From positions 205,434 through 269,433 of the forward strand of contig JAHBYU010000004.1 in NCBI GenBank assembly GCA_019635775.1: a DNA stretch of 64,000 nucleotides. The letters run 5' to 3'. The stretch comes from Rhizobiaceae bacterium. Its GTDB lineage: Bacteria > Pseudomonadota > Alphaproteobacteria > Rhizobiales > Rhizobiaceae. The position numbers and the translations under genes were made by a program. Below are positions 39,373 to 59,033 of this stretch, piece after piece (the first letter of the stretch is position 1; the number at the start of each line of letters is the position of its first letter). The notes below the pieces were generated by a model. It saw only the letters and a list, made by a program, of their open reading frames with translations, had not been told where the DNA came from and ran no database searches.

Positions 39373-40710
39373 ATGTCCTTTCTCGGCGACATGCTGTCAG
39401 CCATCGCCGAGCGCGGAAAGGCGCTCGTCGACTTTACGGCGATCCCTCAGGCAGCGACACCAGTGGAGCAGGTCGCGGCACTTTGCAGAAGTCTGCTAAG
39501 CTCGCGCGGCGAGGCAGGCGCGTTGGCTACCGCTACCGAGGTGTTCGAGCGCTACCGCAAACTGGACGGTTCGCAGCGTCAGATGTTCTTCCGTGTGTTG
39601 CTGGACGAGTTCGGTCCGGACATGGAACCGCTCCTCACGGCTGCCCGCGCCTTTGTCTCGTCGCCCGACGATCGGGCCGCGGAGACATTGCATCACCTGT
39701 CCGAACCGAGACGACAGAATCTCTTTCGCCTGCTGAACCAGTCCACGCACGGAACCGCCGAACTGATTGGCATGCGCGCCGACCTGCTGGCGATGCTGCC
39801 TGACGATCCAGGCCTGCGTCCGGTGGACAGGGACTTCCAGCATCTGTTCCGCTCGTGGTTCAATCGCGGCTTTCTCGAACTGAGGCGTATCGACTGGGAG
39901 ACGCCGGCTGTAATCCTCGAAAGGATCATACGTTACGAGGCCGTGCACGAGATCAAGGACTGGGAGGATCTGCGGCGGCGCATCGACCCTGCGGACCGGC
40001 GGCTTTACGCCTTTTTTCACCCGCGCCTGCGCGACGAGCCATTGATCTTTGTCGAGGTGGCGCTGGCCCGGGACATGGTGGGCTCGATCGCTTCCATCCT
40101 GAACCCCGAGCGCGAGATCATCGGCACGGATCAGGCACAGACCGCCGTCTTCTATTCCATATCGGACTGCCAGCCGGGACTGCGCGGAATTTCCTTCGGC
40201 AACTTCCTGATCAAGCAAGTCGTTCAGGAACTGCGGGCCGAACTTCCGAAGCTGCAGAAGTTCGTCACGCTGTCGCCCGTGCCGCTATTTGCTCGCTGGC
40301 TTGGCCGGCAGCCGATCGACAAACTCGGCCTCGATGCCTTGTCGCAGCCGAACTGGTGGTTGGAACCCGACGCGGCGGAAGCGATCGAGCAGAAACTGCC
40401 GGCACTGGCTGCCCTCTATCTGACCGAACTGCGCGATTCGACCGGCAGGCTGCTTGATCCCGTCGCGCGTTTCCATCTCGGCAACGGTGCGCGACTGGAA
40501 AGGATCAACTGGCTCGCCAACACCAGCAGCGCCGGCATGGCCTCTTCGCATGGCATCATGGTCAATTATCTCTACAAGCTTGACGAAATCGAGCGCAATC
40601 ACGAGGCCTACGCATCCGGTCATCCAGTGGCGGCCGCCGGGCCTGTGCGTCGACTTGCGAACCAGGGAACGCGCTTGCTGGAGCAAGGCACTACAGACGA
40701 GGGGAAATGA
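39373..40710 (+). CDS. matA: Malonyl-CoA decarboxylase
   Basis: 445 aa. Converts malonyl-CoA to acetyl-CoA and CO2. The N-terminal helical domain and the C-terminal acyltransferase-like domain are both present; FVTLSPVPLFARWLG carries the conserved catalytic Ser region, and FHLGNGARLERINWLANTSS through MVNYLYKLDEIERNHEAY is the family C-terminus with the catalytic His. ATG 39373 has GGAG about ten bases upstream; a GTG at 39358 is also in frame. It overlaps matB as ATGA. A matR regulator or matC carrier is not present next to it. Confidence 0.93.
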   Translation: MSFLGDMLSAIAERGKALVDFTAIPQAATPVEQVAALCRSLLSSRGEAGALATATEVFERYRKLDGSQRQMFFRVLLDEFGPDMEPLLTAARAFVSSPDDRAAETLHHLSEPRRQNLFRLLNQSTHGTAELIGMRADLLAMLPDDPGLRPVDRDFQHLFRSWFNRGFLELRRIDWETPAVILERIIRYEAVHEIKDWEDLRRRIDPADRRLYAFFHPRLRDEPLIFVEVALARDMVGSIASILNPEREIIGTDQAQTAVFYSISDCQPGLRGISFGNFLIKQVVQELRAELPKLQKFVTLSPVPLFARWLGRQPIDKLGLDALSQPNWWLEPDAAEAIEQKLPALAALYLTELRDSTGRLLDPVARFHLGNGARLERINWLANTSSAGMASSHGIMVNYLYKLDEIERNHEAYASGHPVAAAGPVRRLANQGTRLLEQGTTDEGK

Positions 40711-42224
40711 GAATGGGCAACTTGTTCACTACGGTCGCGGAACGCATCACCGATCCCGCGCGTCCGTTCCTGCGGGACAGCGCCGGAAACGTTTTCAGCT
40801 ATGGCGACATGATTGCGGCCTCGGGGCATTACGGCAACGCTATTCTGTCGTTTGGCGTGAAGCCGGGCGATCGCGTAGCCGTGCAGACCGGCAAGCATGT
40901 CGACAGTGTTTGGCTTTATCTCGCCTGCCTGCGCGCTGGCGCAGTCTATCTGCCGCTGAATCCGGCCTATACGCCAGCCGAGGTCGACTATTTCGTGTCG
41001 GATGCGGAGCCGGCATTGCTGGTCTGCGAGCCGGCCACGCTGGAGACGCTTCGCGCAGGACTGGGTAAGAAGGCGATCCGCATGGAGACGCTCGATGCTT
41101 CCGGCAAGGGGTCTCTGCAGGCGCTGGCCGCAACCATGCTGCCGGAATTCTCCACGGTGGAGCGCGATGCGGACGACCTCGCCGCGATCCTCTACACATC
41201 CGGCACCACGGGCCGATCGAAAGGCGCGATGATCAGCCACGAGAACCTGCGCTCCAACGCGCTGGCGCTGGTCGAAATCTGGCATTTTACGGCCGGCGAC
41301 GTGTTGCTGCATGCGCTGCCGATCTTCCATACGCATGGCCTGTTCGTCGCCATCAACACCGTGATGCTGTCAGGGTCCTCGATGATCTACCTGCCGAAGT
41401 TCGATCTCGACGCGGTGCTCGGCGAGATGCCCTCGGCAACCACGATGATGGGCGTGCCGACCTTCTACACCCGTTTATTATCAGACAAGCGGTTTAACCG
41501 CGCCGCGGCGAGCCACATGCGCCTTTTCGTTTCAGGCTCGGCACCGTTGTCGGCAGAGACGCATCGCGCGTTCACGGCACGAACCGGGCACGCGATTCTC
41601 GAGCGTTACGGGATGACAGAGACCAACATGATCACGTCCAATCCATATGATGGCGAAAGGCGGCCCGGCGCGGTCGGATTTCCGCTGCCAGGCGTTTCTG
41701 TGCGCATTGCCGAGCCCGACACAGGAAAACCCCTGCCGCAAGGTGGGATCGGCGTCATCGAACTCAAGGGCCCCAATGTCTTTAAGGGCTATTGGCACAT
41801 GCCGGAAAAGACGGCACAGGAGTTTCGCCCGGACGGCTGGTTCATTACCGGCGATCTTGGCTACGTCGATCCCGATGGATATTTCACGATCTCCGGCCGA
41901 GCGAAGGATCTGATCATATCGGGTGGATTCAACGTATATCCGGCAGAAGTCGAAAATGCCCTGGATGCACTTTCCTCTATTGGAGAATCGGCTGTGATTG
42001 GCTTGCCCCATGCGGATTTCGGAGAGGCGGTGACCGCAGTTGTTACGCCCCGGCCGGGCATGACTGTCGATGAAAGCGCTGTTCGTGCCGAGCTTGAGAA
42101 CGTGTTGGCCAAGTTCAAGATACCGAAGCGCATCCTGATCGCGGATGCGTTGCCGCGAAATGCCATGGGCAAGGTTCAGAAGAACGCGCTTCGCGAACAA
42201 TATTCAGGGCTCTACGCGTCCTAG
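40707..42224 (+). CDS. matB: Malonyl-CoA synthetase (malonate-CoA ligase)
   Basis: 505 aa, ANL adenylate-forming family. Activates malonate with ATP and CoA to malonyl-CoA. Motifs: P-loop LYTSGTTGRSKGA (about residues 163-175), ERYGMTETNM, the hinge TGDLGYVDPDGYFTISGRAKD and the C-terminal catalytic lysine in PRNAMGKVQKN. The sequence is of MatB/ACSF3 type. With MatA it converts free malonate to acetyl-CoA. The likely source of malonate is the N-heterocycle/amide cluster just downstream, or uptake from plant tissue as in other rhizobia. Confidence 0.93.
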   Translation: MRMGNLFTTVAERITDPARPFLRDSAGNVFSYGDMIAASGHYGNAILSFGVKPGDRVAVQTGKHVDSVWLYLACLRAGAVYLPLNPAYTPAEVDYFVSDAEPALLVCEPATLETLRAGLGKKAIRMETLDASGKGSLQALAATMLPEFSTVERDADDLAAILYTSGTTGRSKGAMISHENLRSNALALVEIWHFTAGDVLLHALPIFHTHGLFVAINTVMLSGSSMIYLPKFDLDAVLGEMPSATTMMGVPTFYTRLLSDKRFNRAAASHMRLFVSGSAPLSAETHRAFTARTGHAILERYGMTETNMITSNPYDGERRPGAVGFPLPGVSVRIAEPDTGKPLPQGGIGVIELKGPNVFKGYWHMPEKTAQEFRPDGWFITGDLGYVDPDGYFTISGRAKDLIISGGFNVYPAEVENALDALSSIGESAVIGLPHADFGEAVTAVVTPRPGMTVDESAVRAELENVLAKFKIPKRILIADALPRNAMGKVQKNALREQYSGLYAS

Positions 42225-42411
42225 GACAGTGCCGCCTGTCGTGCCGTCCCATCCCGTGATGTCGTTCCTGTGCGTCCGAAGCCCGATTGGTTCGCGGCAC
42301 CGGACCGGCTTTACGGGCCACTTGGCATCGCGAGCCGGCAGGTGTGTTTTGAATGCCCGGAGACGCCCCACAACTGGTTTCCATTGATTGGACGAAGTGT
42401 CGAAAAAGGAC
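42225..42411. other. Spacer after matB, no gene seen
   Basis: The part of the matB-hyuA gap before the hyuA promoter holds no supportable gene and no clear terminator with a T-run. Short GC-rich inverted segments occur but are not convincing. Confidence 0.3.
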
Positions 42412-42466
42412 TTGTCACCGGGTTTAGAATATGCGCTAAATGAACGTCGTATCCGTATAGTGGATA
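42412..42466 (+). promoter_or_regulatory. hyuA promoter with IclR-type operator
   Basis: A possible -35 TTGTCA (42412-42417) and -10 CTAAAT (42436-42441) are 18 bases apart. Next comes TATCC-N7-GGATA (42450-42466), which includes ATAGTGGATA (42457-42466), the reverse complement of the 10-mer at the IclR/amidase and molybdenum hydroxylase promoters. The operator lies between the probable start of transcription and the ribosome-binding site GGAGGG. Confidence 0.6.
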
Positions 42467-42480
42467 TTTGGAGGGTTCAG

Positions 42481-44541
42481 ATGAATGTCAGGGTAGCCAT
42501 CGACACCGGCGGAACGTTCACCGATGTGGTGGCGATCAACCAGGGCACCGGTGCGATCACCGCGATCAAGACGCCGTCTACGCCAAGCGATCCGAGCGTG
42601 GGTCTGCTCGACGGGGTCAGAAAGGTTCTGGAAAAGGTCGGCGCCCAGCCTCAAGATCTTGCGATGTTGCTGCATGGCTCGACCGTTGCCACGAATGCTG
42701 TGCTGGAGCACAAGTTTGCCGGTCTTGGGCTGATCGTTACGCGCGGCTTCCGTCACATGATCGAGATTGCTCGCCAGTCGGTACCTGACGGCTACGGAAA
42801 CTCATTCTTCTGGGTCAAGCCGCCGCGTCTGGTGCCGTTGCATCTGGTGCGCGAAGTGCCCGGGCGCATGAAGTTCGATGGCCGCGAATTGGAGCCGATC
42901 GACGAGGAAGCCACTCTCCAGGCCGTGCGTGAGTTGGTCGAGGACGGCGTGAAGTGCATCGGGGTCTGCCTGCTTCACTCCTACGCCAACGGCGAGCATG
43001 AGCAGCGAATAGGCGAACTGATCGAGAAGAATTTTCCGGGCGTTTTCGTTTCGCTGTCCTCCGTCGTCCTGCCGGAGTATCGCGAATACGAGCGTGCAAT
43101 GACCACCTTGGTCGACGTTCTTGTGAAGCCGTATTGCAAGACCTATCTGCAGAGCGCAGCAGACCGATTGCGTTCGCAATCGGGAGACATCCCGTTCCTG
43201 ATCATGCAGTCGAACGGGGGCGTGGTGAAGCATTCGACAGCGGGCGCAAAGCCGGTAACGATGCTGCTTTCGGGGCCGGCCGCAGGGATCCTCGGCGCGA
43301 TCCATATGGCCACGCTTGCCGGTTACGACAACATTCTCACGTCGGACGTCGGCGGAACCTCGACGGACATCGCCATCATCGAGAAGCAGACCCCGATGTA
43401 CACGTCGGAGTCCATGATCGAGCACTACCCGGTGAAGACCCCGATGCTCGACATCGTGACCGTAGGCTCCGGAGGCGGTTCGATCGCGTGGACGGACCCG
43501 TATGGAAGCCTTAAGGTCGGCCCACAAAGCGCCGGCGCCGATCCCGGGCCGATCTGCTACGGGCGAGGCGGCACGCAGCCGACCGTAACCGACGCGGCGA
43601 TCGTGCTGGGCCGCCTGCCGACGTCGCTGATAGGCGGCGAGATCCAGCTCGACCTCGATGCCGCCCGCAAGGCCTATGAGGAGCTGGGTCAGCAGCATAA
43701 TATGAAGCCTGAAGAGGTTGCTGCCGGGGTCCTGGAGATTGCGGCCGTCAACCAGGTGTTCGGCATCCGCAAGGTGACCACCTCGCGCGGCCGCGATCCG
43801 GGCAATTACGCAATGGTTGCCTTCGGCGGCGCAGGCGGTCTTTTCGCAACCGAGGTTGCCGACTTCCTTGGTATGAAAACGGTCATATCGCCGCCCGATC
43901 CGGGCAATCTCTGCGCGCTTGGCCTCCATGTGTCCGATGTGCGCCGCGACTACATTCGCACCATCGTGAGACGGCAGTCGACTGCGGATATTTCCGAGAT
44001 CGTCTCGGTCTGGAACGCGCTTGCGGAAGAAGGGCGACGCGACATCCGCGCGGAAGGCATCGCCGATTCCGACATCAAGATCGAATATGTCGCCGACGTC
44101 CGTTACTTCGGCGAGGGCCATGAAGTGCAGGTCGTCGCCCCGGATGGTTTCTCCGGTGAGGATGCCGTCGCACATATGTGGAAGGAGTTTCATCGTGTCC
44201 ACGACGAATCCTTCGGCTTTCACTACGAGGGCGAGCAGGACGTGGAACTGGTGAACTTGCGCGTGCGTGCCGTGGGTGTCCAGAATCGACCGCAGATCAA
44301 TGCGACGGAGAATACCGCCCAGCCCGCCAAGCCATTCGGGTCGCGCACCGTCTACTGGAAGGGCGCTGGCTGGATCGATAGCCCGCTCTATGAACGAACC
44401 GAACTGGCGGCCGGTCAGGCTATACCCGGTCCGGCGATCATCCAGGAATACGGCTCGACCGTTGTCGTGCCCGGCGGGTGGACATGTACCGCAGACCGCT
44501 ACCGGAATCTCATCCTGACCGCGAGGGAGACGCAGTCGTGA
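42481..44541 (+). CDS. hyuA: Hydantoinase/oxoprolinase subunit A (HyuA)
   Basis: 686 aa. ATP-dependent cyclic-amide hydrolase subunit, of the N-methylhydantoinase, 5-oxoprolinase, acetophenone carboxylase and caprolactamase family. The actin-like ATP-binding fold is shown by AIDTGGTFTDVVAI at the start and TSDVGGTSTDIAII (about residue 300), with SVVLPEYREYERAMTT and SAGADPGPICYGRGG typical of the family. The A subunit binds ATP and primes the ring for opening. ATG 42481 follows GGAGGG; the longer open frame runs through the operator. It overlaps hyuB by four bases. Confidence 0.92.
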   Translation: MNVRVAIDTGGTFTDVVAINQGTGAITAIKTPSTPSDPSVGLLDGVRKVLEKVGAQPQDLAMLLHGSTVATNAVLEHKFAGLGLIVTRGFRHMIEIARQSVPDGYGNSFFWVKPPRLVPLHLVREVPGRMKFDGRELEPIDEEATLQAVRELVEDGVKCIGVCLLHSYANGEHEQRIGELIEKNFPGVFVSLSSVVLPEYREYERAMTTLVDVLVKPYCKTYLQSAADRLRSQSGDIPFLIMQSNGGVVKHSTAGAKPVTMLLSGPAAGILGAIHMATLAGYDNILTSDVGGTSTDIAIIEKQTPMYTSESMIEHYPVKTPMLDIVTVGSGGGSIAWTDPYGSLKVGPQSAGADPGPICYGRGGTQPTVTDAAIVLGRLPTSLIGGEIQLDLDAARKAYEELGQQHNMKPEEVAAGVLEIAAVNQVFGIRKVTTSRGRDPGNYAMVAFGGAGGLFATEVADFLGMKTVISPPDPGNLCALGLHVSDVRRDYIRTIVRRQSTADISEIVSVWNALAEEGRRDIRAEGIADSDIKIEYVADVRYFGEGHEVQVVAPDGFSGEDAVAHMWKEFHRVHDESFGFHYEGEQDVELVNLRVRAVGVQNRPQINATENTAQPAKPFGSRTVYWKGAGWIDSPLYERTELAAGQAIPGPAIIQEYGSTVVVPGGWTCTADRYRNLILTARETQS

Positions 44542-46454
44542 GCAACGAAAACAAGGTGAAGCTCGGACCGATCGAGCTGGAAGTCATCCACGGCACCATC
44601 CGCGCGGCGGAGCTGGAGATCGAGGCAGCGGTGGAGCGCACAGCGCGTTCGCCGATGATCCGTGACCAGCACGACTATCGTGTCGCGCTGTTCGACGCGA
44701 AGGGACGCAAGCTTACAGGGCGCTCCTATTCAGCGATCGTGGAGCCGGTGTTTGAATATTTTGGCGAGGACAAGATCTTCCCGGGCGACGTGTTCTTCTG
44801 GAATGATCCGTACAATTCGTGCGGCGGCATCGGGCATGTGCCCGACCTTTGCACAACAGTCCCCATCTTCCACCAGGACAAGCTGATCGGCTTCAGCCAG
44901 GTCTTCGGTCATCATGACGATATCGGCGGCGCGGTTCCGGGCAGCTTGCCGGTTCATGCGACTGACAGCTGGATGGAAGGTGTCCTTATTCCGCCGATCA
45001 AGCTCTACGAGCGCGGTGTGCTTAACGAAGCGGCTTTTCGTATCATCACACGCAACTCGCGCCTCGAGGATCACCTGGCCGGCGACCTAGATGCGGAGAT
45101 CGGCGCCTGCAAGCTTGGCTCGCGGCGGATCGTCTCGCTGGCGGAACGCTACGGCGTCGAGGTGCTCGAAGCCGCTTTCGATCAGATCCTCAAGAATGCC
45201 GCCGAGATATTCCGCAGGGAAATCCTGCCGAAGATCAAGGACGGTGTCTATCACTACGAGGACTATATCGAAGCTGATGGCGTGGAAGAGGGCAAGATCC
45301 ACGCGCTTCGCCTCACGATGACGAAGACGCCAGACAAGATCACGCTCGACTTCAACGGCACGGACCCCGAGGCCAAGGGACCGATCAACTGGTCGCTGGA
45401 TGAAGTGGAAGGGCGCTACTTCCGCAAATGGCTGGCGCCCGTGCTGAGGTCGCTTGCGGCTTCTCCGGAGCGCGCCGCCGAAATCGACTCCAACGAAGGC
45501 GTTCTGGACGTCATCGATGTCGTTTTCCCTGAAAAGGGAACGCTCATCACGCCGACATTCGGCAAGCCAACCGGCATGCGCTTCTTCCTGATGCTGCGCT
45601 CGCTGGGTGTTTTTGCCGCCTGCCTGTCCAAGGCGACGGCCGGCCGCATGCCTGCGGATCATGAGACGATCCGAATCTGGGGCCTGACGGGCGGGCGCAA
45701 TCGCGACGACTTCTTCCTGTTCCGTGAAGTGCTGGGTGGTGGGGGACCCGGCCGTCCCTGGGCTGACGGTTCGGATGTCGTGCATATCGTGCCCAACTCG
45801 CGCAACCTGCCAGCGGAGTTTTCCGAGACCCGCTATCCGATCATGGTCGAGCAACTCGCGCTCAAGCAGGATTCCGGCGGAGCCGGCTTCCGGCGCGGCG
45901 GGTTTGGCTACGATAAAAAGATCCGTGCGCTCGACGAATGCCGGCTGATCTCCAACGCCGACCGCTCAGTCCTGGGTTGCTACGGGGTGAACGGCGGGAA
46001 GACAGGCCAGAACTATCAGGTCTCCGTGATTGCCGAAAACGGCAGCGAGACCGTCTACCCGGGTATGTCGGATACGGTCGTGGTGAAGCCCGGCGCATCG
46101 GTGCGGGTCGTGACCACGGGTGGTGGCGGTTGGGGAGATCCGCTGGCTCGTGAGGTGGATACGGTCGTCTACGATCTCCAGTGCGGCCTGATATCCGAGC
46201 GAAGCGCCCGAGAAGACTACGGCGTGTCGGTCTTGCTCAAGGGCAGGAAATGGACGCATGACGCGGCACAGACCAAGGCGTTGAGAGAAAAGCTTCGCAA
46301 GGAGCGCGGCATTCCACCCATGTTTGATCGCGGCGAAGCCTTCCGGGCCATGAAGGCGAAGGGCATGGTCAGATATCCGGACAACTGGAGCGATCCGGAT
46401 GAGGGATGGGATGCCGTGGGCGAGGGCGCTTCCTTCGCACAGGCGGCGGAATAG
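44538..46454 (+). CDS. hyuB: Hydantoinase/oxoprolinase subunit B (HyuB)
   Basis: 638 aa. Partner of HyuA, needed for ring opening. GTG 44538 overlaps the hyuA TGA as GTGA. HyuB hallmarks: ARSPMIRDQHDYRVALFDA, NDPYNSCGGIGHVPDLCTTV, FGHHDDIGGAVPGSLP, and the C-terminal TTGGGGWGDPLAREVD. Together the two subunits spend ATP to cleave a cyclic amide or lactam to an open-chain acid. The substrate may be a hydantoin, an oxidised pyrimidine-like ring or a lactam; the surrounding Mo hydroxylase and amidase favour an N-heterocycle. Confidence 0.92.
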   Translation: MSNENKVKLGPIELEVIHGTIRAAELEIEAAVERTARSPMIRDQHDYRVALFDAKGRKLTGRSYSAIVEPVFEYFGEDKIFPGDVFFWNDPYNSCGGIGHVPDLCTTVPIFHQDKLIGFSQVFGHHDDIGGAVPGSLPVHATDSWMEGVLIPPIKLYERGVLNEAAFRIITRNSRLEDHLAGDLDAEIGACKLGSRRIVSLAERYGVEVLEAAFDQILKNAAEIFRREILPKIKDGVYHYEDYIEADGVEEGKIHALRLTMTKTPDKITLDFNGTDPEAKGPINWSLDEVEGRYFRKWLAPVLRSLAASPERAAEIDSNEGVLDVIDVVFPEKGTLITPTFGKPTGMRFFLMLRSLGVFAACLSKATAGRMPADHETIRIWGLTGGRNRDDFFLFREVLGGGGPGRPWADGSDVVHIVPNSRNLPAEFSETRYPIMVEQLALKQDSGGAGFRRGGFGYDKKIRALDECRLISNADRSVLGCYGVNGGKTGQNYQVSVIAENGSETVYPGMSDTVVVKPGASVRVVTTGGGGWGDPLAREVDTVVYDLQCGLISERSAREDYGVSVLLKGRKWTHDAAQTKALREKLRKERGIPPMFDRGEAFRAMKAKGMVRYPDNWSDPDEGWDAVGEGASFAQAAE

Positions 46455-46482
46455 CCCGGCCTCGACAGCGGAAGGAGTTGCC

Positions 46483-47028
46483 ATGCAGATCAAGCAATCC
46501 GTTACGGTGAACCGTCCGCGCGAAGAGGTCTGGGCACTCTTCCAGGACATTCCGACGATAGCCGGATGCATGCCAGGTGCAGAGCTGACACGCGACAATG
46601 GAAACGGCAGCTATGCCGGCGTCGTGTCGATCAAGCTGGGACCGTTCAAGGCCGCCTTCGAAGGAGAAGTCCAGCATGAGTCCGATGCCGAGAATTTCTC
46701 CGGCAAGGCCGAAGGGCGTGGCGTGGACAAGAAGGGTGGCAGCCGGTCGCGAATGACGATGGCCTATGCATTGGCGGACAAGGGCGACGCCACCGAGTTG
46801 ACTGTTAATGCAGACATCCAGCTAAGTGGTCCTGTTGCCCAGTTCGGAAGACCAGGAATCGTCACCGAGACGGCGAAACTGCTGATCCAGCAGTTTGTCG
46901 CAAATGTAGAGGCCGAACTTAACGGCAACGGTGGGGCATCCGAAGCCGCGAAGGAACTCAGCGCCCTCAAACTCGGCAGCAAGGTCGTTGGCGCCTCGGT
47001 AAAGCGCTGGCTCGGCAAGGAAGGCTAA
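46483..47028 (+). CDS. CoxG/SRPBCC-family protein
   Basis: 181 aa. SRPBCC-fold protein related to CoxG, the accessory subunit found with CO dehydrogenase-type molybdenum enzymes. The domain start MQIKQSVTVNRPREEVWALF and MPGAELT are typical; the C-terminal helix (about 125-181) would suit membrane or quinone contact, which is known for CoxG. GGAAGGAG precedes the ATG. Its presence links the hydantoinase operon to the molybdenum hydroxylase encoded at 50466-54271, although they are separate transcripts. Confidence 0.8.
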   Translation: MQIKQSVTVNRPREEVWALFQDIPTIAGCMPGAELTRDNGNGSYAGVVSIKLGPFKAAFEGEVQHESDAENFSGKAEGRGVDKKGGSRSRMTMAYALADKGDATELTVNADIQLSGPVAQFGRPGIVTETAKLLIQQFVANVEAELNGNGGASEAAKELSALKLGSKVVGASVKRWLGKEG

Positions 47029-47047
47029 AAACCTGCAGGAGACGATG

Positions 47048-47845
47048 ATGGAACACCGTATGTCCTTCATGACCCAGATGGAAATCGCCGAAGCGATCGC
47101 CGCCGGTCGTGCCGTGATCGTCCCGACAGGCGCGACGGAGGCACATGGTCCGCATATGCCCGTCGACACAGATACGCATCAGGCCGAGCATATCGCCGTC
47201 CTGCTGGCGGAGCGTATCGGGGCGATTGTCGCGCCGCCAGTCGCCTATGGCGTGTCGATGACCTTCGAGCATTTTCCCGGAACGATCTCGCTGTCGATCC
47301 CCACCTATCAACTCATGCTGTTCGAGATCGGCGCTGCGCTGGTCAAGCAAGGCTTCAGCCACGTCATCCTGTTGAATGGCAACCGTCCCAGCGGTACCGC
47401 CAATGACCAGGTGGCGCGCCACATGGTGGATCAGCTCGACACGGCTCATAATTTCAAGGTGTCGGCCGTCAGCTACTGGGAGCCCGCGGCCGACAAGATC
47501 CACGCCATGCGCAAGTCGGTGGTCGGCGGGATGGGACATGGATGCGAACTGGAAGCTTCCTTCCAGCTCGCCACCCGTCCGGAACTGGTAAAAATGGAAA
47601 AGCTAAAAGGCGCAAAATACGGCCCCGTGGGATGGGATCTGGTCGCTCCGACAAACCCCACACGAACCTATGCGCGCAGACCGCGTCCCGAGGTGGGGCA
47701 TGCGGCGATCTTCGGCGACCCGACTGTCGCGAGCGAGGAAATGGGACGCAAGTCGATCGAGATCATTGTCGACGTGCTGGAGGAGACCTTCACCAACCTG
47801 CAGGGGTCCTATCAGGACCGACCGGGGATGACGAAGACGGCCTAG
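47048..47845 (+). CDS. Creatininase-family amidohydrolase
   Basis: 265 aa. The family hydrolyses cyclic or formyl amides with two metals (creatininase, FAPy deformylase, MftE). The N-terminal metal site ATEAHGPHMPVDTDTHQAE is intact, as is the later Glu in GHGCELEAS. However the usual NGHGGN (or NGHYEN) segment reads NGNRPS here, replacing the histidine ligand by Asn. So metal content or substrate may be unusual. ATG 47048 has AGGAG six bases upstream; ATG 47045 is the alternative. The stop overlaps that of the convergent IclR gene. Confidence 0.8.
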   Translation: MEHRMSFMTQMEIAEAIAAGRAVIVPTGATEAHGPHMPVDTDTHQAEHIAVLLAERIGAIVAPPVAYGVSMTFEHFPGTISLSIPTYQLMLFEIGAALVKQGFSHVILLNGNRPSGTANDQVARHMVDQLDTAHNFKVSAVSYWEPAADKIHAMRKSVVGGMGHGCELEASFQLATRPELVKMEKLKGAKYGPVGWDLVAPTNPTRTYARRPRPEVGHAAIFGDPTVASEEMGRKSIEIIVDVLEETFTNLQGSYQDRPGMTKTA

Positions 47846-50327: not shown

Positions 50328-50344
50328 TATCCACTATCAGGATA
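50328..50344 (+). promoter_or_regulatory. IclR-type operator of Mo hydroxylase operon
   Basis: TATCC-ACTATCA-GGATA is a 17-bp inverted repeat with the same arms and spacing as the hyuA site (42450-42466). It includes TATCCACTAT at 50328-50337. Being about ten bases after the predicted transcription start, it suits repression. Confidence 0.65.
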
Positions 50345-50465
50345 CTGACGACGGGGAACAAGATAGGCTTGCCGGGTGCGTCGAGCCGTGGGAGACCAGA
50401 CACCAAAGAGGTGCGATCTCCGACGAAAACAGCGCTTCAGTCGAGCCTCATAGCTGGGGAATGAC

Positions 50466-51335: not shown

Positions 51336-51339
51336 TCCG

Positions 51340-51873
51340 ATGAGCAGGCACGAGCACCTAGAACGCTCCATACCCAGCACATCCGCCGACCCGAAAGCCG
51401 AGGTCACGCTGACGGTAAACGGCGTGTCAGTCACGCGTGAAGTCAGCACCCGCATGCTGCTTTCCGACTTCATCCGTCATGGTCTGCGCCTGACCGGAAC
51501 GCATGTCGGCTGCGAGCATGGCGTGTGCGGCGCCTGTACAGTGATGATCGACGGACGCGCGGCGCGCTCTTGCCTCACCTTCGCCGTGCAGGCCGATGGC
51601 GCGGACATCCGTACGATCGAGAGCGAGGCGGAAGAGGACGGGACTCTAAGCGCGTTGCAGCAGGCCTTCCAGGAATGCCACGGCCTCCAGTGTGGCTACT
51701 GCACTCCAGGCATGATCATGAACATACGTGCCCATTTCGATTCCGGAGAGGAACTCGACCTCTCCGATGAGGGCATACGCGAACTGATTTCGGGCAATCT
51801 CTGTCGTTGCACGGGGTATGCAAATATCGTCAAGGCAGTTCGCCGCGCGGCTGAACTTGCCGGGAAAGCCTGA
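51340..51873 (+). CDS. Molybdenum hydroxylase 2Fe-2S subunit (CoxS-like)
   Basis: 177 aa. Two [2Fe-2S] clusters: the N-terminal ferredoxin fold with CEHGVCGACTVMIDG (about 52-66) and C-terminal helical domain with CGYCTPGMIM and LCRCTGYANI. It carries electrons from the molybdenum site to FAD. The ~20-residue N-terminal extension before VTLTVNG is a little longer than usual. It begins four bases after the FAD subunit stop and ends 10 bases before the large subunit start. Confidence 0.93.
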   Translation: MSRHEHLERSIPSTSADPKAEVTLTVNGVSVTREVSTRMLLSDFIRHGLRLTGTHVGCEHGVCGACTVMIDGRAARSCLTFAVQADGADIRTIESEAEEDGTLSALQQAFQECHGLQCGYCTPGMIMNIRAHFDSGEELDLSDEGIRELISGNLCRCTGYANIVKAVRRAAELAGKA

Positions 51874-51883
51874 GGGGTCGCAG

Positions 51884-54271
51884 ATGTCCACCCGCAAGTT
51901 CGGCGCCCCGATCAAGCGCAACATCGATCCAAAGCTTCTGACCGGGAACGGGGCTTTCACCGACGACATAAACCTGCCAGGCGTCTTGCATGCCGCGTTC
52001 GTGCGTAGCCCGTTTGCCCGAGCCCGGATCAACGGCATCGACACGAGCTTGGCGGAGCAGGCCGATGGCGTTGTCGCCGTCTACACCTGCGACAACATCG
52101 GACATCTGGATATCGAGTTGCCGCTGCTGATCCCGCATCCGTCGATGACAGCCGCGCGAACCCAGCGTCCGCTGGCTCGCGGGGATGTCTATTATGTCGG
52201 GCAGACGGTTGCCATGGTAGTCGCAGTGGACCGCTATGTCGCGGAGGATGCGGCAAATCTGGTCGATGTCGATTACCACCCGCTCGACGTCGAGCTTGAT
52301 CTGGAAAAAGCGATCGAAGACGGAACGCCGCTGGTGCATCCGACGCATCCCAACAACATTGCAGCAGACTTTACCCAGGTGTGCGGCAACCCTGAAGCGG
52401 CCTTCGCAGAGGCCGAGCATGTCACGCGCATAAGGGTGCAGGTTGACCGCTCCACTGCGGCTGCCATGGAATGCAGGACGGTTGCTGCGCGTTACGATTC
52501 CGTGCGTGGCGAACTGACCGTCTGGGATGGCACCCAGGCGCCCCTTGGCGTGCGCGGTGGCCTCGCGTCCATTTTCGGGTTGGACGAAGACAAGGTTCGC
52601 GTCATCGCGCCCGATGTTGGCGGCGGTTTCGGCCAGAAGGTGATGTTCCCCTATCCGGACGAACTCCTCGTGCCGCATGCTGCGATTCAACTCGGCCGTC
52701 CGGTGAAATATATCGAGGACAGGCGGGAGAACTTCATCGGTTCCAACCAGGAACGCACTCAGATTCACGAGATCGAACTGTTCGCCAAAAAGAATGGCGA
52801 GGTCATCGCCCTGCGAGACAGTTTCCTGCATGATACCGGTGCGTTCATTCCTTACGGGATCGCAGTCGCGCAGGTGGCCTCGACATCGATTGCCGGACCT
52901 TACCAGATCCCCAACATCCACGTCCGGTTCCGGGCTGTGTACACGCCAACCGTACCAGTGACCCCTTATCGCGGCTGCGGTCGACCGCAGGCCTGTTTTG
53001 CGATCGAACGCGCTATGGACCAACTGGCCGAGGAACTTGGCATCGATCGCTTCGAGATCAGGCGACGTAACCTTATCCGTGACGAACAATTTCCCTATAC
53101 GCGAGAAGGGCTGCTCTTTGCAGATGGGTTACGGGTCAAGCTCGACAGCGGCCAATACACCAAGGCCCTTGAGATGGCGCGCGAGGCGATCGGCTGGGAC
53201 AATTTCGCAGCCAGTCAGGAAGCCGCGCGCAAGGAAGGCAAGGCGATCGGACTGGGACTTGCCTACTATGTCGAGGGAACCGGACTTGGTCCCTATGAAG
53301 GCGGGCACATCAAGATTCACCCGATCACCGGCAAGGTCTACGTAAATACCGGCCTGACATCGCAAGGGCAGGGACATGACACCGTGTTCGCCCAGATCGT
53401 CTCCGACCAGCTTGGCGTCGCCGTCGAGGACGTGATCGTGGTGGAGGGAGACACGGGCACCTTTGAATGGGGTGTTGCGACCTTCGCCAGCCGTGCGGCC
53501 GTGGTTTCGGGCAATGCGATCCACAAGACAGCGATCAAGGTTCGGGAGCAGACCATCAAGGCCGCGGCGAACATGCTTGAGGCCGACCCCGCCGACATTG
53601 AACTTGAGGATGGCCACGCTGTCGTTGCAGGTACGGACCGCAAGGTCTCGCTTGCCGCCATCGCCACTGCGACCAATCCTCTGCGCTACGCGTTCAACTC
53701 GGCTGCACAGGCTGCGACACAGTTCGCTCCCGCCAGCCGTCACGACGGGCCGCCGCTGATCGATGGCCAGCATCCCGGCCTGGAGGCGACGGATTACTTC
53801 AGCCCGGAATGCGCAACGTGGGCCTATGGCGTTCATGCCGCGATCGTCGAGATCGACCGGGACACCTGCGACGTCGAGGTCAAGAAGTACATCTGCATCC
53901 ACGACTGCGGGAACATGATCAATCCTGTGATTGTCGACGGCCAGGTGATGGGTGGATTCGCGCAAGGCATCGGCGGCGCGCTCTACGAGCGGATCGAGTA
54001 CGATACCGAGGGCAATCCGACGAACGCTAACTTCGTCGACTTCCTCATTCCCTATGCGACCGAAGTGCCGGCGATCGAGATATCGCACCTCGAAACGCCT
54101 TCACCGCTCAATCCCCTTGGCGTCAAGGGCGTGGGGGAGGCAGGCTGCATCGCGGTGGGCGCGACATTGGCTTCAGGCATTGAGGATGCGCTCAGGCCTT
54201 TCGGGGGAAAGAAATTCCACCAGACACCGATCACGCCGAGCATGATCTTCGGCGCGATTTCCAACGGATGA
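51884..54271 (+). CDS. Molybdenum hydroxylase large subunit (CoxL-like, form II)
   Basis: 795 aa. Holds the molybdopterin cofactor and active site. GGGFGQK (about 246-252) binds the cofactor; the catalytic Glu is in KGVGEAG near residue 752. The active-site loop reads PYRGCGRPQ (361-369) rather than the AYxCSFR of true aerobic CO dehydrogenase, so CO is not the expected substrate; the usual form II loop is AYRGAGR. Such enzymes typically hydroxylate carbons of N-heterocycles. The substrate is probably imported by the BMP transporter encoded downstream. Confidence 0.92.
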   Translation: MSTRKFGAPIKRNIDPKLLTGNGAFTDDINLPGVLHAAFVRSPFARARINGIDTSLAEQADGVVAVYTCDNIGHLDIELPLLIPHPSMTAARTQRPLARGDVYYVGQTVAMVVAVDRYVAEDAANLVDVDYHPLDVELDLEKAIEDGTPLVHPTHPNNIAADFTQVCGNPEAAFAEAEHVTRIRVQVDRSTAAAMECRTVAARYDSVRGELTVWDGTQAPLGVRGGLASIFGLDEDKVRVIAPDVGGGFGQKVMFPYPDELLVPHAAIQLGRPVKYIEDRRENFIGSNQERTQIHEIELFAKKNGEVIALRDSFLHDTGAFIPYGIAVAQVASTSIAGPYQIPNIHVRFRAVYTPTVPVTPYRGCGRPQACFAIERAMDQLAEELGIDRFEIRRRNLIRDEQFPYTREGLLFADGLRVKLDSGQYTKALEMAREAIGWDNFAASQEAARKEGKAIGLGLAYYVEGTGLGPYEGGHIKIHPITGKVYVNTGLTSQGQGHDTVFAQIVSDQLGVAVEDVIVVEGDTGTFEWGVATFASRAAVVSGNAIHKTAIKVREQTIKAAANMLEADPADIELEDGHAVVAGTDRKVSLAAIATATNPLRYAFNSAAQAATQFAPASRHDGPPLIDGQHPGLEATDYFSPECATWAYGVHAAIVEIDRDTCDVEVKKYICIHDCGNMINPVIVDGQVMGGFAQGIGGALYERIEYDTEGNPTNANFVDFLIPYATEVPAIEISHLETPSPLNPLGVKGVGEAGCIAVGATLASGIEDALRPFGGKKFHQTPITPSMIFGAISNG

Positions 54272-54361
54272 ACGAGGCTCCGATCGAGTGGCCATCGGGG
54301 CTGAAAACAAGACGGGTTGGCTACGCAAACAATAACAAGGTCAAACTCGAAGGAGCATGAA

Positions 54362-55447
54362 ATGGGCATGACTCGACTCTCATCAACGCTGGCATGGGGA
54401 CTGGCGTTATCCGTTGTCCCGGCCGTCATCCACGCCGAGCCTTTCAAACTGGAAGGCGATCCAAACCCCGCTCTCGTCATCTTTTCGCAAAAGAACGACG
54501 GAGGCTGGTCGCAGTCTCTGGATGAGGCACGCGCCAAGGTCGAAAAAGAACTCGGGATAACCATCCCGGTGGTGGAGAACGTACCCGAAAATGCGACCGC
54601 GATCCGTCCTGCGGTGGAGCTTTTCATCGACCGTGGCTCGAATATCATCATCGGATCGGCCTTCGGATATTCCGATACCTTCCTCGAACTCGCCAAGCAG
54701 TACCCGAACGTCGCGTTCATCAATCCGGCGGGTACAACCAACGCTGCAAACCTGCAGTCGATCTACGGCCGTACCTACGAATCTCAGTATCTTTGCGGCA
54801 TGGCGGCTGGTGCCCTTTCGAAAAGCGGAAAGATCGGCTTCGTGGCCGCAAATCCGTTTGGCCTCGTCAACTGGACGGTTAACGCCTATGCGCTGGGCGC
54901 GCAGAAGATCAATCCTGACGCCACTGTCACAGTGGTTTTCACCGGTGCCTGGAACGATCCTGTCAAGGAACGCGCTGCTACCGAAGCACTGATCGAGCAG
55001 GGGATTGACGTTGTCGGTCAGCACGTCGATTCGCCGACGCCGCAGATCGTGGCCCAGGAGAAGGGCGTATACGGAACGGGCCATCATCGCGACCTTAGCG
55101 AATTCAGCACTGCCACACAGTGCTCGTCGGTCTGGGTCTGGGACAAGTACCTGACGCCGACCATCCAGAAGATCGCCGCTGGCGAGTGGGAGACATCCCC
55201 CTACGGCGCCTTCCTCTCGATCAAGGAAGGCGGAACGGATATCGCCTGCTGCGGTGACGCCGTTTCCGAAGACGTCAAAAAGCAGATCATGGACGAGCGC
55301 CAGGCGATCATTGACGGAAAACAAGTCTATGCCGGTCCTCTTTCCGACCGGGACGGCAAGGAGCGGGTCAAGGAGGGCGAGGTTCTGTCCGACGCGGATC
55401 TCTGGGGCATGGACTGGTACGTCAAAGGCGTCATCAGCCAGCAATGA
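54362..55447 (+). CDS. BMP-family ABC transporter substrate-binding protein
   Basis: 361 aa. Basic-membrane-protein (PnrA/BmpA) family; characterised members bind purine or pyrimidine nucleosides. A Sec signal MGMTRLSSTLAWGLALSVVP with cleavage near IHA precedes it; there is no lipobox cysteine. Typical stretches: NDGGWSQSLDEARAKVEKEL, NIIIGSAFGYSDTFLELAK, FVAANPFGLVNW. ATG 54362 has AAGGAG upstream. It would bring a nucleoside, base or similar heterocycle to the permeases, fitting the hydroxylase. It overlaps the ATPase gene by ATGA. Confidence 0.9.
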   Translation: MGMTRLSSTLAWGLALSVVPAVIHAEPFKLEGDPNPALVIFSQKNDGGWSQSLDEARAKVEKELGITIPVVENVPENATAIRPAVELFIDRGSNIIIGSAFGYSDTFLELAKQYPNVAFINPAGTTNAANLQSIYGRTYESQYLCGMAAGALSKSGKIGFVAANPFGLVNWTVNAYALGAQKINPDATVTVVFTGAWNDPVKERAATEALIEQGIDVVGQHVDSPTPQIVAQEKGVYGTGHHRDLSEFSTATQCSSVWVWDKYLTPTIQKIAAGEWETSPYGAFLSIKEGGTDIACCGDAVSEDVKKQIMDERQAIIDGKQVYAGPLSDRDGKERVKEGEVLSDADLWGMDWYVKGVISQQ

Positions 55448-57003
55448 ATGCCATGACGGGCCACATGCGGGACACCGCCCGCCTCGGCCTGGGCGCTTCC
55501 GATGCCCCGCCGGCCCTGTCGCTGGCGGGCGTATCGAAGACCTTTGGTGATTTCGCTGCGCTGAGTGGCGTGGATTTCGACCTCCGAGCGGGAGAAATCC
55601 ACGCCCTTCTAGGGGAGAATGGCGCCGGCAAGTCCACACTGATGAACATCGTGGCGGGTATCTACACGCCGGACAGCGGAACGGTATCGCTGCATGGCCA
55701 ACCGGTGGTCATTCAGGGTCCCTCCGACGCCCAGCAAATGGGCGTCGGCATGGTGCATCAACACTACAAGCTCGTGAAGCCGTTCACCGGACTTGAGAAT
55801 ATCCTGCTTTCCCACCCGCAAGGATCTTTCAGGGCAGCGCGGGAACGAATTCTGGTGCTCACCAAGGAGGCGGTCGACCGTATCGGATTCGACGTCGACC
55901 TGAACAAGCCGGTCGAACACATGTCCGTCTCCGAGCAGCAGCGCATCGAGATACTCAAAGTGCTTGTCGCGGGCGCGAAGGTGATCATCCTTGATGAGCC
56001 GACCGCCGTGCTGACGGACACAGAATCGGCGCGACTGTTCGAGGCGATGCACAACCTTGCGCGGGAGGGTCACCCGATCGTGCTTGTCACGCACAAATTG
56101 TCCGAGGCCCTAAACCATGCCGACCGCATCACGGTAATGCGGGGAGGCAAGGTGGTGCGCACGGTCCTTCCTTCCGAAGTCGGCGAAGCGGAACTCACCG
56201 AACTCATCGTCGGCAGCACGATCGGCAGTCGTGGATACAAGGGCTGCACGCCCGGAGCGCCGGTGCTCAAGCTTCGCGCCATCGAGCGCCACGACAGTCG
56301 TGGCGGCGCTCTGCGCAACCTGACCTTTGATGTCCGGGCAGGGGAAATCTACGGTATCGCAGGCGTGGGCGGTAACGGGCAAAACGCCCTTGTCGAGGTC
56401 ATTACCGGTCTGGGCACGGCAGATGCCGGCAACATCTGGCTGCAGGGATATGGCGACGTGACCAACCGCCCTTCCGAACAGATGCGCCGGTGCGGGATTG
56501 CTTGCATACCGTCCGACCGGCAGTCGGATGCCTTGGCCGGCGAACTCCGCATCGCGGACAACTATGCGATAGGTGGAGTTATCAAAGGACTTTACGGCTC
56601 CGTCTTGAAAGTCGATCGTCGCCGCATCGAGGCCGATACGCGCGAGGCGATCCGGCGTTTCGAGGTCATGGGTGTGCGGAGCGCACACCAGAAGGCTGGG
56701 CTCCTGTCAGGAGGCAATGCCCAGAAGCTGGTGATCGCCCGCGAATTTTCGGGCGAACCCACGTTGATCCTTGCGCATTCGCCGAGCCGCGGCCTCGACG
56801 TCCGCGCATCTTCAGCGATCCATGATCATCTGCGCGCTGCTCGAGACAGGGGAGCGGGCGTTATCCTGATCAGCGAGGATCTGGATGAGGTCCTTATGTT
56901 GGCGGACCGCATTGGCGTCATGAACAGAGGGTCAATCGTCGCGGAGTTCGAAGTGCCGGCGGATAGGCAGGCGATCGGAAAGGCTATGGTGGGTCATGGC
57001 TGA
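55444..57003 (+). CDS. BMP-type ABC transporter ATP-binding protein
   Basis: 519 aa, two ABC halves. The N-terminal Walker A is GENGAGKST, signature SVSEQQRIE and Walker B ILDEPTAVL. The C-terminal half has degenerate Walker A GVGGNGQNA, signature LLSGGNAQKL and LAHSPSRGLDV in place of a normal Walker B, which is common in YufO/NupO-type ATPases. It should energise import through the two permeases. It overlaps the first permease gene by eight bases. Confidence 0.9.
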   Translation: MNAMTGHMRDTARLGLGASDAPPALSLAGVSKTFGDFAALSGVDFDLRAGEIHALLGENGAGKSTLMNIVAGIYTPDSGTVSLHGQPVVIQGPSDAQQMGVGMVHQHYKLVKPFTGLENILLSHPQGSFRAARERILVLTKEAVDRIGFDVDLNKPVEHMSVSEQQRIEILKVLVAGAKVIILDEPTAVLTDTESARLFEAMHNLAREGHPIVLVTHKLSEALNHADRITVMRGGKVVRTVLPSEVGEAELTELIVGSTIGSRGYKGCTPGAPVLKLRAIERHDSRGGALRNLTFDVRAGEIYGIAGVGGNGQNALVEVITGLGTADAGNIWLQGYGDVTNRPSEQMRRCGIACIPSDRQSDALAGELRIADNYAIGGVIKGLYGSVLKVDRRRIEADTREAIRRFEVMGVRSAHQKAGLLSGGNAQKLVIAREFSGEPTLILAHSPSRGLDVRASSAIHDHLRAARDRGAGVILISEDLDEVLMLADRIGVMNRGSIVAEFEVPADRQAIGKAMVGHG

Positions 57004-58093
57004 GATCGCGGTTCCGAAGGCTGCTGCGCGGCGTGGCTTCTTTGGCCGCTTCAATCTCGAAGTGCGGGGACATATGCCGATTGCGCAGCAGGTGCTGGTG
57101 GTGAGCGCCGGTATCCTGCTCGGACTATTGCTCTCGGCCTTGCTCCTGATCGCGTCGGGGGTGAAACCCTCCGGTCTGGCAAACGAATTCATCGTCGCCA
57201 TCTTCTCGAGCAAGAGGAACGTGGCTGCGGTGCTTTCGTATGCCGCTCCGCTGACCATCGTTGGTCTTGCCGCCACGCTCGCCTTTAAGGCGCGCTTCTG
57301 GAACATCGGCATCGAGGGACAGATCATCTTTGGCGCAATCGGGGCGACGCTGGTCGCCAATTCCGACTTCGGGCCTGCCTCGATGCGCATCGTGACGATG
57401 GCGCTTGCCGCGATGGTCGCCGGCATGCTCTGGATCGCGCTGCCGCTGTTCCTGAAGATCAGGCTGCAGGTGAATGAAATCATCAGCACCCTGCTGATGA
57501 ATTACATCGCCTTCAACTTTCTCCTGCATCTGCTCTATGGCTCATGGAAGGATCCGCAGAGCGCGTTTCCGAACTCAAAGCTCTTTGACGATGTCGAACG
57601 GTTGATGCCTGTCGGCTGGCAAAACCTCAACCTTTCCGTGCCGATCGCCATCGTGCTGGTGCTTTGCGTGGCATGGCTGCTCGGAATGAGCCGATATGGC
57701 TTCCTCCTGAACTTCGTCTATTCCAATGCACGCATGGCGAGGGCGATGGGAGTGCGGATCGCCGGCCTGACGGTGCTGTTTGCACTCGCATCCGGCGCGC
57801 TGTCAGGGTTCGGCGGTTTCATGATCAGCACGGGCATCGAGAGCCGCCTCACGCAGTCATTTTTCATAGGATACGGCTTTTCCGGAATCCTCATTGCCTT
57901 CCTTGCCAGAAACAATCCGTTTGCGGTCGCCTTCTTTGCAATCCTGATTGCCGTCCTGATGGTCGCCGGCCAAAGCCTCCAGGTTTTCTACCAGATCCCC
58001 TTTGCGATGGTTCAGCTTATCCAGGCGATCATCGTGATCTGCGTGGCCGCTTCCGAGTTCTTCATCCACTACCGGATCAGAATGGTGGGATAG
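56996..58093 (+). CDS. BMP-type ABC transporter permease 1
   Basis: 365 aa with about nine hydrophobic segments; BPD_transp_2 family, YufP/NupP-like. LAFKARFWNIGIEGQIIFGAI (about residue 94) and INEIISTLLMNYIA-like VNEIISTLLMNYIAFN are family motifs. A ~20-residue N-terminal cytoplasmic extension precedes the first segment. It begins eight bases before the ATPase stop. The second permease gene follows after seven bases. Confidence 0.9.
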   Translation: MAEIAVPKAAARRGFFGRFNLEVRGHMPIAQQVLVVSAGILLGLLLSALLLIASGVKPSGLANEFIVAIFSSKRNVAAVLSYAAPLTIVGLAATLAFKARFWNIGIEGQIIFGAIGATLVANSDFGPASMRIVTMALAAMVAGMLWIALPLFLKIRLQVNEIISTLLMNYIAFNFLLHLLYGSWKDPQSAFPNSKLFDDVERLMPVGWQNLNLSVPIAIVLVLCVAWLLGMSRYGFLLNFVYSNARMARAMGVRIAGLTVLFALASGALSGFGGFMISTGIESRLTQSFFIGYGFSGILIAFLARNNPFAVAFFAILIAVLMVAGQSLQVFYQIPFAMVQLIQAIIVICVAASEFFIHYRIRMVG

Positions 58094-58100
58094 GACGGAC

Positions 58101-59033
58101 ATGGATTTCCTCGTCAACTGGCTGGCCAACGTTCCGGGTTTTGCCGTGCCCTTTGCGCTGGCTGCTCTCGGGCTCATAGTCTGCGAGAAATCCGGCGTTC
58201 TGAACCTTGGCGCGGAAGGCTACATGCTCGCCGGTGCGATGGCCGGCGCGGGCGCAATGCTGTCGCTTGATGTGCATCCGCTTGTAGCCCTGGGTATCGC
58301 TGCGCTGTTTTCCGCACTCCTGTCGCTGCTTTTTGCGTTGCTTGTGATCACTCTTCGCGTGAACCAGGTGATATCGGGACTCGTCATCGTCTTCTTCGCA
58401 CAAGGCTTGACGGCATTGATCGCGACAAGTCAGGGGTGGACTAATCGGTCTTTTTCGGGACTGGGCGAGTTGAATTTCGGTCCCCTGTCGACGCTGCCTG
58501 TGGTCGGACGAATTTTCTTTCAGCAGGACATCGTCGTCTACCTCACGGTTCTTGTCTTCGCCGTCACGGTGCATGTGCTGCGCGCAACGCATGTCGGGAT
58601 GCGGCTTCGCGCGGTCGGTGAGAACCCGGAGGCGGCGGACGCAGCTGGCATACCAGTTGGCCTATACCGGCTTGGCGCCGTGGTCGTAGGATGCATGCTT
58701 ATCGGGTTGGCGGGTGGCTACCTGACGGTCGCCGTTTCAAAGATCTGGGTAGACGGTATGTCGGGCGGGAGGGGCTGGATAGCCATTGCTCTCGTCATAT
58801 TCGCCCGCTGGCAGCCCTGGTCGGCTTTGGCTGGTGCCGTCATCTTCGGCTGCATAGAGGCGCTTATTCCACGAATGGCGGCGATAGGCCTGCAACTTCC
58901 GCAATATTTCGTTCTGATGCTGCCCTATGTGGTGACGCTTGGCGTCATGGTCTGGACCAGCCTCTCCGCCAGCCGCCACAGCGGCCAGCCCGGCGCTCTT
59001 GGGCAGCCCTTCGTTCGAGAGGAACGCCGCTAG
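58101..59033 (+). CDS. BMP-type ABC transporter permease 2
   Basis: 310 aa, about nine hydrophobic segments, YufQ/NupQ-like. Near the start it has GLIVCEKSGVLNLGAEGYML, then LRVNQVISGLVIVFFAQGL and VGENPEAADAAGIPVG, all typical of this permease subfamily. It forms the heterodimeric channel with permease 1. It ends the Mo hydroxylase/transporter operon; about 190 bases follow before the sulfide cluster. Confidence 0.9.
   Translation: MDFLVNWLANVPGFAVPFALAALGLIVCEKSGVLNLGAEGYMLAGAMAGAGAMLSLDVHPLVALGIAALFSALLSLLFALLVITLRVNQVISGLVIVFFAQGLTALIATSQGWTNRSFSGLGELNFGPLSTLPVVGRIFFQQDIVVYLTVLVFAVTVHVLRATHVGMRLRAVGENPEAADAAGIPVGLYRLGAVVVGCMLIGLAGGYLTVAVSKIWVDGMSGGRGWIAIALVIFARWQPWSALAGAVIFGCIEALIPRMAAIGLQLPQYFVLMLPYVVTLGVMVWTSLSASRHSGQPGALGQPFVREERR

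Follow-up and report, generated by a model that had tools for sequence, protein, structure and literature searches.

Knowledge of an oxidative route of pyrimidine degradation dates back to the 1950s (Hayaishi and Kornberg 1952, cited in PMC3706326). The route is described as leading from a pyrimidine by way of barbiturate and ureidomalonate to malonate, with urea as the second product (PMC3758960; mentioned in PMC3706326). The enzymes described for Rhodococcus and mycobacteria are uracil/thymine dehydrogenase, barbiturase (Bar) and ureidomalonase, of which only barbiturase was tied to a gene family in the limited and partly excerpted open-access literature that we searched. Here we analyze a window of 64,000 nucleotides from contig JAHBYU010000004.1 of a Rhizobiaceae bacterium (genome label G000), in which 15 intact genes at positions 39373–59033, recognized from open reading frames and family profiles, form an island for which we propose the same reaction types and the same malonate end product as described for this pathway (PMC3758960, PMC3706326). 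The enzymes differ: HyuAB, a creatininase-like protein and an amidase-signature (AS) amidase stand in place of the AtzD/barbiturase family, and the molybdenum (Mo) enzyme is of the CoxMSL type. We consider the chances nearly even, if a shade short of it, that the products of the island take up a pyrimidine-type nucleobase, either uracil or a compound closely derived from it, and degrade it oxidatively to malonyl-CoA and acetyl-CoA. No publication recognizable as describing this gene set was found in the limited open-access literature searched.

Other described systems resemble single parts of the island. Caprolactamase CapAB and the ATP-dependent hydantoinases have the two-subunit architecture, the ATP motifs and the metal residues in common with the island HyuAB (PMC8453981), whereas HyuAB reaches 519 and 231 bits against the caprolactamase models (cut-offs 1000 each), the former being the best NCBIfam match of HyuA (caprolactamase alpha), and the gene setting is a different one. 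The cyanuric acid pathway likewise begins with ring opening, by AtzD. An AS-type or isochorismatase-type amidase (AtzE or BiuH) then acts on biuret (PMC5806882).

The AtzD/barbiturase family has no match in the genome of the window; among the 19 genomes that carry the island (see below), a gene of this family occurs in one, G452, on a separate contig (L064, G452:C53:64-1146, 401 bits), which demonstrates that the model can detect the family, and no control genome gave a match. With the Rut and the reductive (PreA/dihydropyrimidinase) uracil pathways the island presumably shares the substrate class; in its own genome, however, PreA has no match at E ≤ 1e-30 and the best RutA match, at 170.9 bits, stays below the cut-off of 498.3. 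RutA exceeds its cut-off in one of the 19 island genomes, and neither PreA nor RutA does so in ten of them, the own genome included. Two dihydropyrimidinase-family genes of this genome score above cut-off, one of them sitting between efflux and CydDC genes and the other next to an 8-oxoguanine deaminase gene and a further BMP importer. At L059 of this genome (G000:C19:17000-27369), a second BMP importer, an 8-oxoguanine deaminase (550 bits, cut-off 532) and a hydantoinase above cut-off make up another base-degradation cluster.

Layout and Conservation of the Island

The genes follow each other in the order matA, matB, hyuA, hyuB, coxG, creatininase-family gene, iclR, AS amidase gene, coxM, coxS, coxL, BMP gene, ATPase gene and two permease genes; iclR lies on the minus strand, all others on the plus strand. 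All genes that the initial annotation had named were recovered as open frames, and the boundaries it had drawn coincide with the points where matA begins and the second permease gene stops. The genes are densely packed: 10 of the 14 intergenic gaps measure at most 25 bp or are overlaps, and the remaining four 90, 95, 225 and 253 bp, so that apart from matB–hyuA (253 bp) and amidase–coxM (225 bp) the gaps range from −8 to 95 bp. The Pfam cut-offs are passed by HyuA, HyuB, CoxG, the creatininase-like protein, the amidase and the three Cox subunits. No RNA family reached its gathering score in the window.

For searches in other genomes, the creatininase-like protein served as the marker of the island. 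It is rare: we found it in four of 297 genomes of the order and in four of 385 genomes of the class (own genome included in both cases), while in a phylum sample it occurred in the own genome only (1/398). A scan of named genome contigs returned 25 loci, 12 of which, at ≥72% identity, all carry the whole or a partial island. The flanking DNA examined for the other 13 (L020–L032, 28–33% identity) gave no match to hyuAB, Cox, BMP, amidase or mat genes, and these loci were excluded from every island count. The 12 scan loci, the own genome and six more genomes, three each from the order and the class sample, make up the 19 island genomes considered here, a sample found by similarity whose members are related, which means that the counts do not represent independent events. 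All belong to Alphaproteobacteria (Mesorhizobium, Aminobacter, Methylorubrum, Rhodobacteraceae and others), and named carriers include Aminobacter niigataensis DSM 7050, Mesorhizobium sp. Root552 (G1002) and Methylorubrum zatmanii LMG 6087. In a plasmid collection, all 390 records with creatininase homologues fell below 60% identity, their neighborhoods being left unopened.

The same gene neighborhood is repeated around creatininase-like orthologues of 64–94% identity; the association is thus more than chance. HyuA or HyuB is present in 18 of the 19 islands, the BMP gene in 17 and the AS amidase in 12, and iclR adjoins or lies near the creatininase-like gene in most of them. A CoxL orthologue (≥70% identity) occurs in 17 of the 19 genomes, the exceptions being G079 and G1002, in which the island contains an XDH-type enzyme. 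Contigs end inside the islands of G224, G659, G1006, G1010 and G1012, and some of the islands are partial there. The island is a real, conserved and rare catabolic unit.

Linkage to Malonate Genes

MatA (malonyl-CoA decarboxylase, 39373–40710) matches the Pfam families MCD (327 bits) and MCD_N (90 bits) and has no match in NCBIfam; MatB (malonyl-CoA synthetase, 40707–42224) attains 799 bits with NF005702 (cut-off 558). Related genomes with hyuAB and the Mo hydroxylase unlinked to matAB would, in the view of the initial annotation, have told against its proposal; the link held, for matA and/or matB, in 11 of the 19 genomes, and at least four arrangements can be distinguished. In G000 and G1001 the mat genes precede hyuA and share its strand, in G1003 and G1005 they diverge from the creatininase-like gene, and in G1006 and G1007 they lie on the far side of the permease genes, whereas in G1009, G1011 and G1012 matB is situated upstream of hyuA on the opposite strand. 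In G079, matB, matA and the amidase gene form a single run with iclR beside it and divergent, and in G1002 matA is found about 16 kb away from the creatininase-like gene. In G1007, G1009, G1011 and G1012, matB alone was seen near the island, and the matAB linkage of G1006 is deduced from two contigs, each with a piece of coxL. Five further linked MatB homologues score 705–802 bits, above the malonyl-CoA synthase cut-off, and malonyl-CoA decarboxylase domains were confirmed for the MatA proteins of G000, G1006 and G079. The G079 match contains one in-frame TGA; its stop-free part of 408 residues has both malonyl-CoA decarboxylase domains.

This association is also apparent from comparison with other genomes and other Mo enzymes. 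A matA homologue is present in 18 of the 19 island genomes and in 129 of 372 class genomes, four of the 129 being island genomes; set against the remaining 125 of 368, the difference is significant with relatedness ignored (Fisher p ~1e-7). Within 20 kb of matA we found 5 of 18 island CoxL entries versus 0 of 97 other CoxL-like entries (Fisher p = 6e-5), within 10 kb 3 of 18 versus 0 of 97 (p = 0.003) and within 30 kb 5 of 18 versus 1 of 97 (p = 3e-4), where all entries stem from the same 19 genomes and relatedness is uncorrected. For malonate as the presumed product of the island, the genomic support is good.

Candidate Enzymes for Ring Opening and Amide Hydrolysis

HyuA (42478–44541, Pfam Hydantoinase_A) is the ATP-binding and HyuB (44538–46454, Pfam Hydantoinase_B, 447 bits) the metal-binding subunit of a predicted ATP-dependent lactam/hydantoin hydrolase. 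The ATP motifs of such enzymes are given as DxGGTxTD, DxGGT and GxxPGP in PMC8453981, and in HyuA the corresponding DTGGTFTD, DVGGT and GxxPGP (residues 9–16, 290–294 and 353–358) are invariant in 16 sequences. The Asp-His-Asp-His metal residues of HyuB (D43 or D46, H100, D103, H125 or H126), assigned by motif spacing and not by alignment to CapB, are invariant in 18 sequences. In these and the following motif alignments, copies truncated by contig ends are omitted.

The AS amidase (48795–50240, Pfam Amidase, 289 bits) is a candidate acyl-urea or ureido-acid hydrolase, whose Lys76-Ser151-Ser175 is invariant in 11 island copies. In two islands, G1004 and G376, no AS amidase was present in the stretches examined; both carry isochorismatase-fold hydrolases that are 64% identical to each other and adjoin coxM or a permease gene. 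Biuret is likewise hydrolyzed either by the AS-type AtzE or by the isochorismatase-type BiuH, as reported in PMC5806882. The resemblance between the two exchanges suggests, by analogy, an acyl-urea as substrate of this step.

The creatininase-family protein (47045–47845), which exceeds the Pfam Creatininase cut-off of 31.3 with 178 bits, has an altered metal site. Aligned to 1q3k, it retains E32, H34 and D43, but carries N113 and P115 (16/16) at the positions of His120 and Glu122, two of the metal ligands of creatininase, which we take to be Glu34, His36, Asp45, His120 and Glu122. These substitutions are part of an invariant N111-G-N-R-P115 (16/16) where creatininase has NGHYE. Creatinine breakdown was rejected on account of the two missing ligands and of a score of 107.7 bits with the NCBIfam creatininase model, the cut-off of which is 235; from its sequence, the protein would not be classed as a creatininase, and any role that it may have in the pathway is conjectural.

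Molybdenum Hydroxylase and Possible Alternative Entry Genes

The Mo hydroxylase consists of a CoxM-type FAD subunit (50466–51335, Pfam FAD_binding_5 and CO_deh_flav_C), a CoxS-type 2Fe-2S subunit (51340–51873, Pfam Fer2_2 and Fer2) and a CoxL-type molybdenum subunit (51881–54271), which scores 1015 bits with NF040766 (CODH_aero_grp5, cut-off 950); CoxG (46480–47028, Pfam COXG, 61.6 bits) is its accessory protein. The active-site loop of form I aerobic CO dehydrogenase is CSFR. In CoxL of the island this loop reads YRGCGR in 14 of 14 copies, for which reason we rejected a form I CO dehydrogenase; Glu753 is invariant in the same 14 copies.

In the loci L036 and L009/L049, genes for XDH-type subunits, an XdhC-type protein and a cytosine-deaminase-family amidohydrolase substitute for CoxMSL. 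The XDH subunit of L036 lies above its curated cut-off, and that of L009, itself unscored, is 67% identical to it. Moreover, the island of L013 contains a uridine-phosphorylase-family gene, and in Methylorubrum zatmanii one or more urate genes, in which OHCU decarboxylase and HIU hydrolase domains were recognized, are situated about 1 kb beyond coxM. These nucleoside and nucleobase genes, like the isochorismatase-fold hydrolases of G1004 and G376, agree with a chemistry of oxidized pyrimidines and acyl-ureas.

Additional oxygenase genes were observed near some islands. L011 has a Rieske oxygenase with a VanA_C domain (11860–12930) as well as a second Cox-type Mo hydroxylase (16807–20437); a Rieske gene in L012/L052 (L012 18683–19657), 34% related to that of L011, stands beside a ferredoxin-reductase-type gene, and in G452 a ring-hydroxylating-type Rieske protein is encoded near importer genes. 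For the Rieske genes of L011 and L012, removal of methyl groups is a possible function.

The Importer and its Probable Ligand

The BMP-type periplasmic binding protein (54362–55447) is followed by the genes of an ABC transporter ATPase (55444–57003, ABC_ATP_B6, 369 bits, cut-off 670) and of two permeases (56996–58093, ABC_B6_perm_2, 136 bits, cut-off 400; 58101–59033, ABC_B6_perm_1, 167 bits, cut-off 465; all NCBIfam). Its closest solved relatives are AtzT (203 bits) from an s-triazine degrader, with bound guanine, and 3s99, in which adenine is modeled. The aromatic sandwich Tyr45/Trp194 of AtzT is matched by W49 and W197, which do not vary among the 18 sequences compared (17 genomes), whereas the guanine contacts Ser97, Glu165, Asn218 and Asn220 are replaced by Ala, Leu, His and Asp: Position 100 is Ala in 17 of 18 sequences, position 168 Leu, Ile or Val in all 18, and H221 and D223 are each found in 17 of 18. 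The lone exception, at positions 100, 221 and 223, is the protein of L036, whose island has the XDH-type entry genes. The island protein thus keeps the sandwich of AtzT, but with all four polar positions changed it does not correspond to an AtzT-type guanine binder. Since the sandwich is kept while the guanine contacts are replaced, the ligand is likely a flat ring, though not likely guanine; judged by the binding-site residues, an adenine-like or purine ligand would still be compatible.

Proposed Pathway and Competing Explanations

From the gene content, the intact motifs, the recurrence and the linkage described above, we infer the following substrate and order of steps. A flat heterocycle would be imported by the BMP-type ABC system and hydroxylated at a ring carbon by CoxMSL with the aid of CoxG, which would result in a barbiturate-type 2,4,6-trioxo ring. 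At the expense of ATP, HyuAB would then open a ring amide to give an acyl-urea such as ureidomalonate, which the AS amidase, or perhaps the isochorismatase-fold enzyme in two islands, would cleave into malonate and urea or a carbamoyl product. MatB would activate malonate to malonyl-CoA, and MatA would decarboxylate the latter to acetyl-CoA. The gene set would be regulated by the IclR-family protein (47842–48699, minus strand), which is encoded divergently from the amidase and has its best NCBIfam match in the PcaR/PcaU family (93.5 bits, cut-off 284.75). In some relatives, the XDH-type enzyme and the cytosine-deaminase-family amidohydrolase might feed the same lower pathway. Malonate together with an acyl-urea would fit carbons 4-5-6 of a pyrimidine after oxidation. 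The lack of PreA and AtzD/barbiturase matches and of a RutA above cut-off in the own genome also counts in favor of the proposal. That the ring is a pyrimidine is the best reading of the island, with a probability of about one half.

Several observations weigh against this assignment. PreA is above cut-off in 8 of the 19 island genomes (the model name was confirmed on the G1002 match), and the island is consequently not simply a replacement for the reductive route. No mat gene is located near 8 of the 19 islands, partly owing to contig ends. The textbook route has two hydrolysis steps, but the island contains three hydrolases. H221 and D223 of the BMP protein match His and Asp in the adenine-modeled 3s99, and AtzT binds uracil and barbiturate very weakly. 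Finally, the entry enzymes deviate from the textbook: In the cytosine-deaminase-family proteins encoded at L036 and L049, Tyr replaces a Glu of E. coli CodA, presumably Glu217, and the NCBIfam matches shown for these proteins are all below cut-off, while the phosphorylase of L013, with 271 bits just under the cut-off of 280, lacks the F-x3-Q-x-R motif, which we take to be the base-binding motif of E. coli uridine phosphorylase. Because of the PreA genes and of these departures from the residues presumed to confer specificity for uridine and cytosine, a pyrimidine-type ring is a safer assignment than uracil as such. The route from an N-heterocycle to malonate put forward in the initial annotation is partly supported: its general outline has gained from the mat linkage, the nucleoside and nucleobase genes and the exchange of amidase for isochorismatase-fold hydrolase, and the specific case of uracil is less sure.

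The substrate might instead be a modified or N/O-substituted pyrimidine, for instance a methylated base, the thiamine pyrimidine or a man-made pyrimidine, with Rieske oxygenases stripping off the substituents in some islands. The coexistence with PreA, the non-canonical specificity positions of the phosphorylase and deaminase relatives and the Rieske genes near L011 (VanA_C), L012/L052 and the G452 importer are all in line with such a substrate; yet no gene indicates one particular substituent, and Rieske genes were noticed near 3 of the 19 islands only, the remainder not having been searched, and we regard this explanation as unlikely, albeit one to be reckoned with. A purine-derived, hydantoin-type or lactam compound, with matAB nearby for another cause such as general malonate use, seems rather improbable to us. 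It would agree with the closest relatives of HyuA, caprolactamase and N-methylhydantoinase (7hk5, the best solved relative, 487 bits), with the purines held by the relatives of the BMP protein and the two base-contact residues shared with 3s99, and with the XDH-type enzymes in two islands and the urate genes beside one. What speaks against it is the mat linkage, which is repeated in different gene orders, including the matB-matA-amidase run of G079, and is absent from the other CoxL-like entries within 20 kb. To our knowledge, moreover, known hydantoin or purine routes yield no malonate, and neither does the triazine chemistry of the cyanuric acid pathway, in which respect it is unlike the proposal for the island.

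HyuAB might also be an ATP-dependent carboxylase of the acetone/acetophenone type in an island that carboxylates a substrate devoid of nitrogen. The enzymes belong to the same superfamily, and HyuA scores 298 bits with acetophenone carboxylase gamma, but the hydrolase relatives named above score higher and the island includes amide hydrolases as well as a nucleobase-type importer. We rejected the carboxylase for its weaker scores and consider it highly improbable.

Returning to oxidative pyrimidine breakdown, the island might represent a self-contained and hitherto undescribed alphaproteobacterial pathway in which HyuAB replaces barbiturase and the AS amidase or isochorismatase-fold hydrolase replaces ureidomalonase. 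A common core that produces malonate would be supplied by interchangeable entry modules, either CoxMSL or XDH with the deaminase-family protein, in one case together with an importer of a separate type. This extended proposal we hold tentatively, at somewhat less than an even chance. As a candidate for oxidative pyrimidine breakdown, the gene set is concrete, and it is conserved although rare; as named carriers exist, the proposal is directly testable. If correct, it would widen the range of roles of ATP-dependent HyuAB enzymes and provide a likely function for a CoxL-type subgroup that is labeled CO dehydrogenase in NCBIfam.

Neighboring Genes

On one side, the island adjoins minus-strand genes for an FGGY carbohydrate kinase, an M42 peptidase and a BtpA/SgcQ-family protein (34762–38266). 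On the other side (59222–61584), a persulfide-dioxygenase-like MBL protein (Blh model, 577 bits, cut-off 625) is followed by small membrane-protein frames that resemble YeeE/YedE by eye only, perhaps a sulfur cluster. EamA/DMT-type permease genes occur in six islands (window 38285–39211; L008 1197–2099; L053 8320–9210; L010 13458–14408; L012 13268–14137; L033 15500–16537), where they either adjoin mat genes or separate the iclR/amidase end from coxM, and possibly encode an extra transporter.

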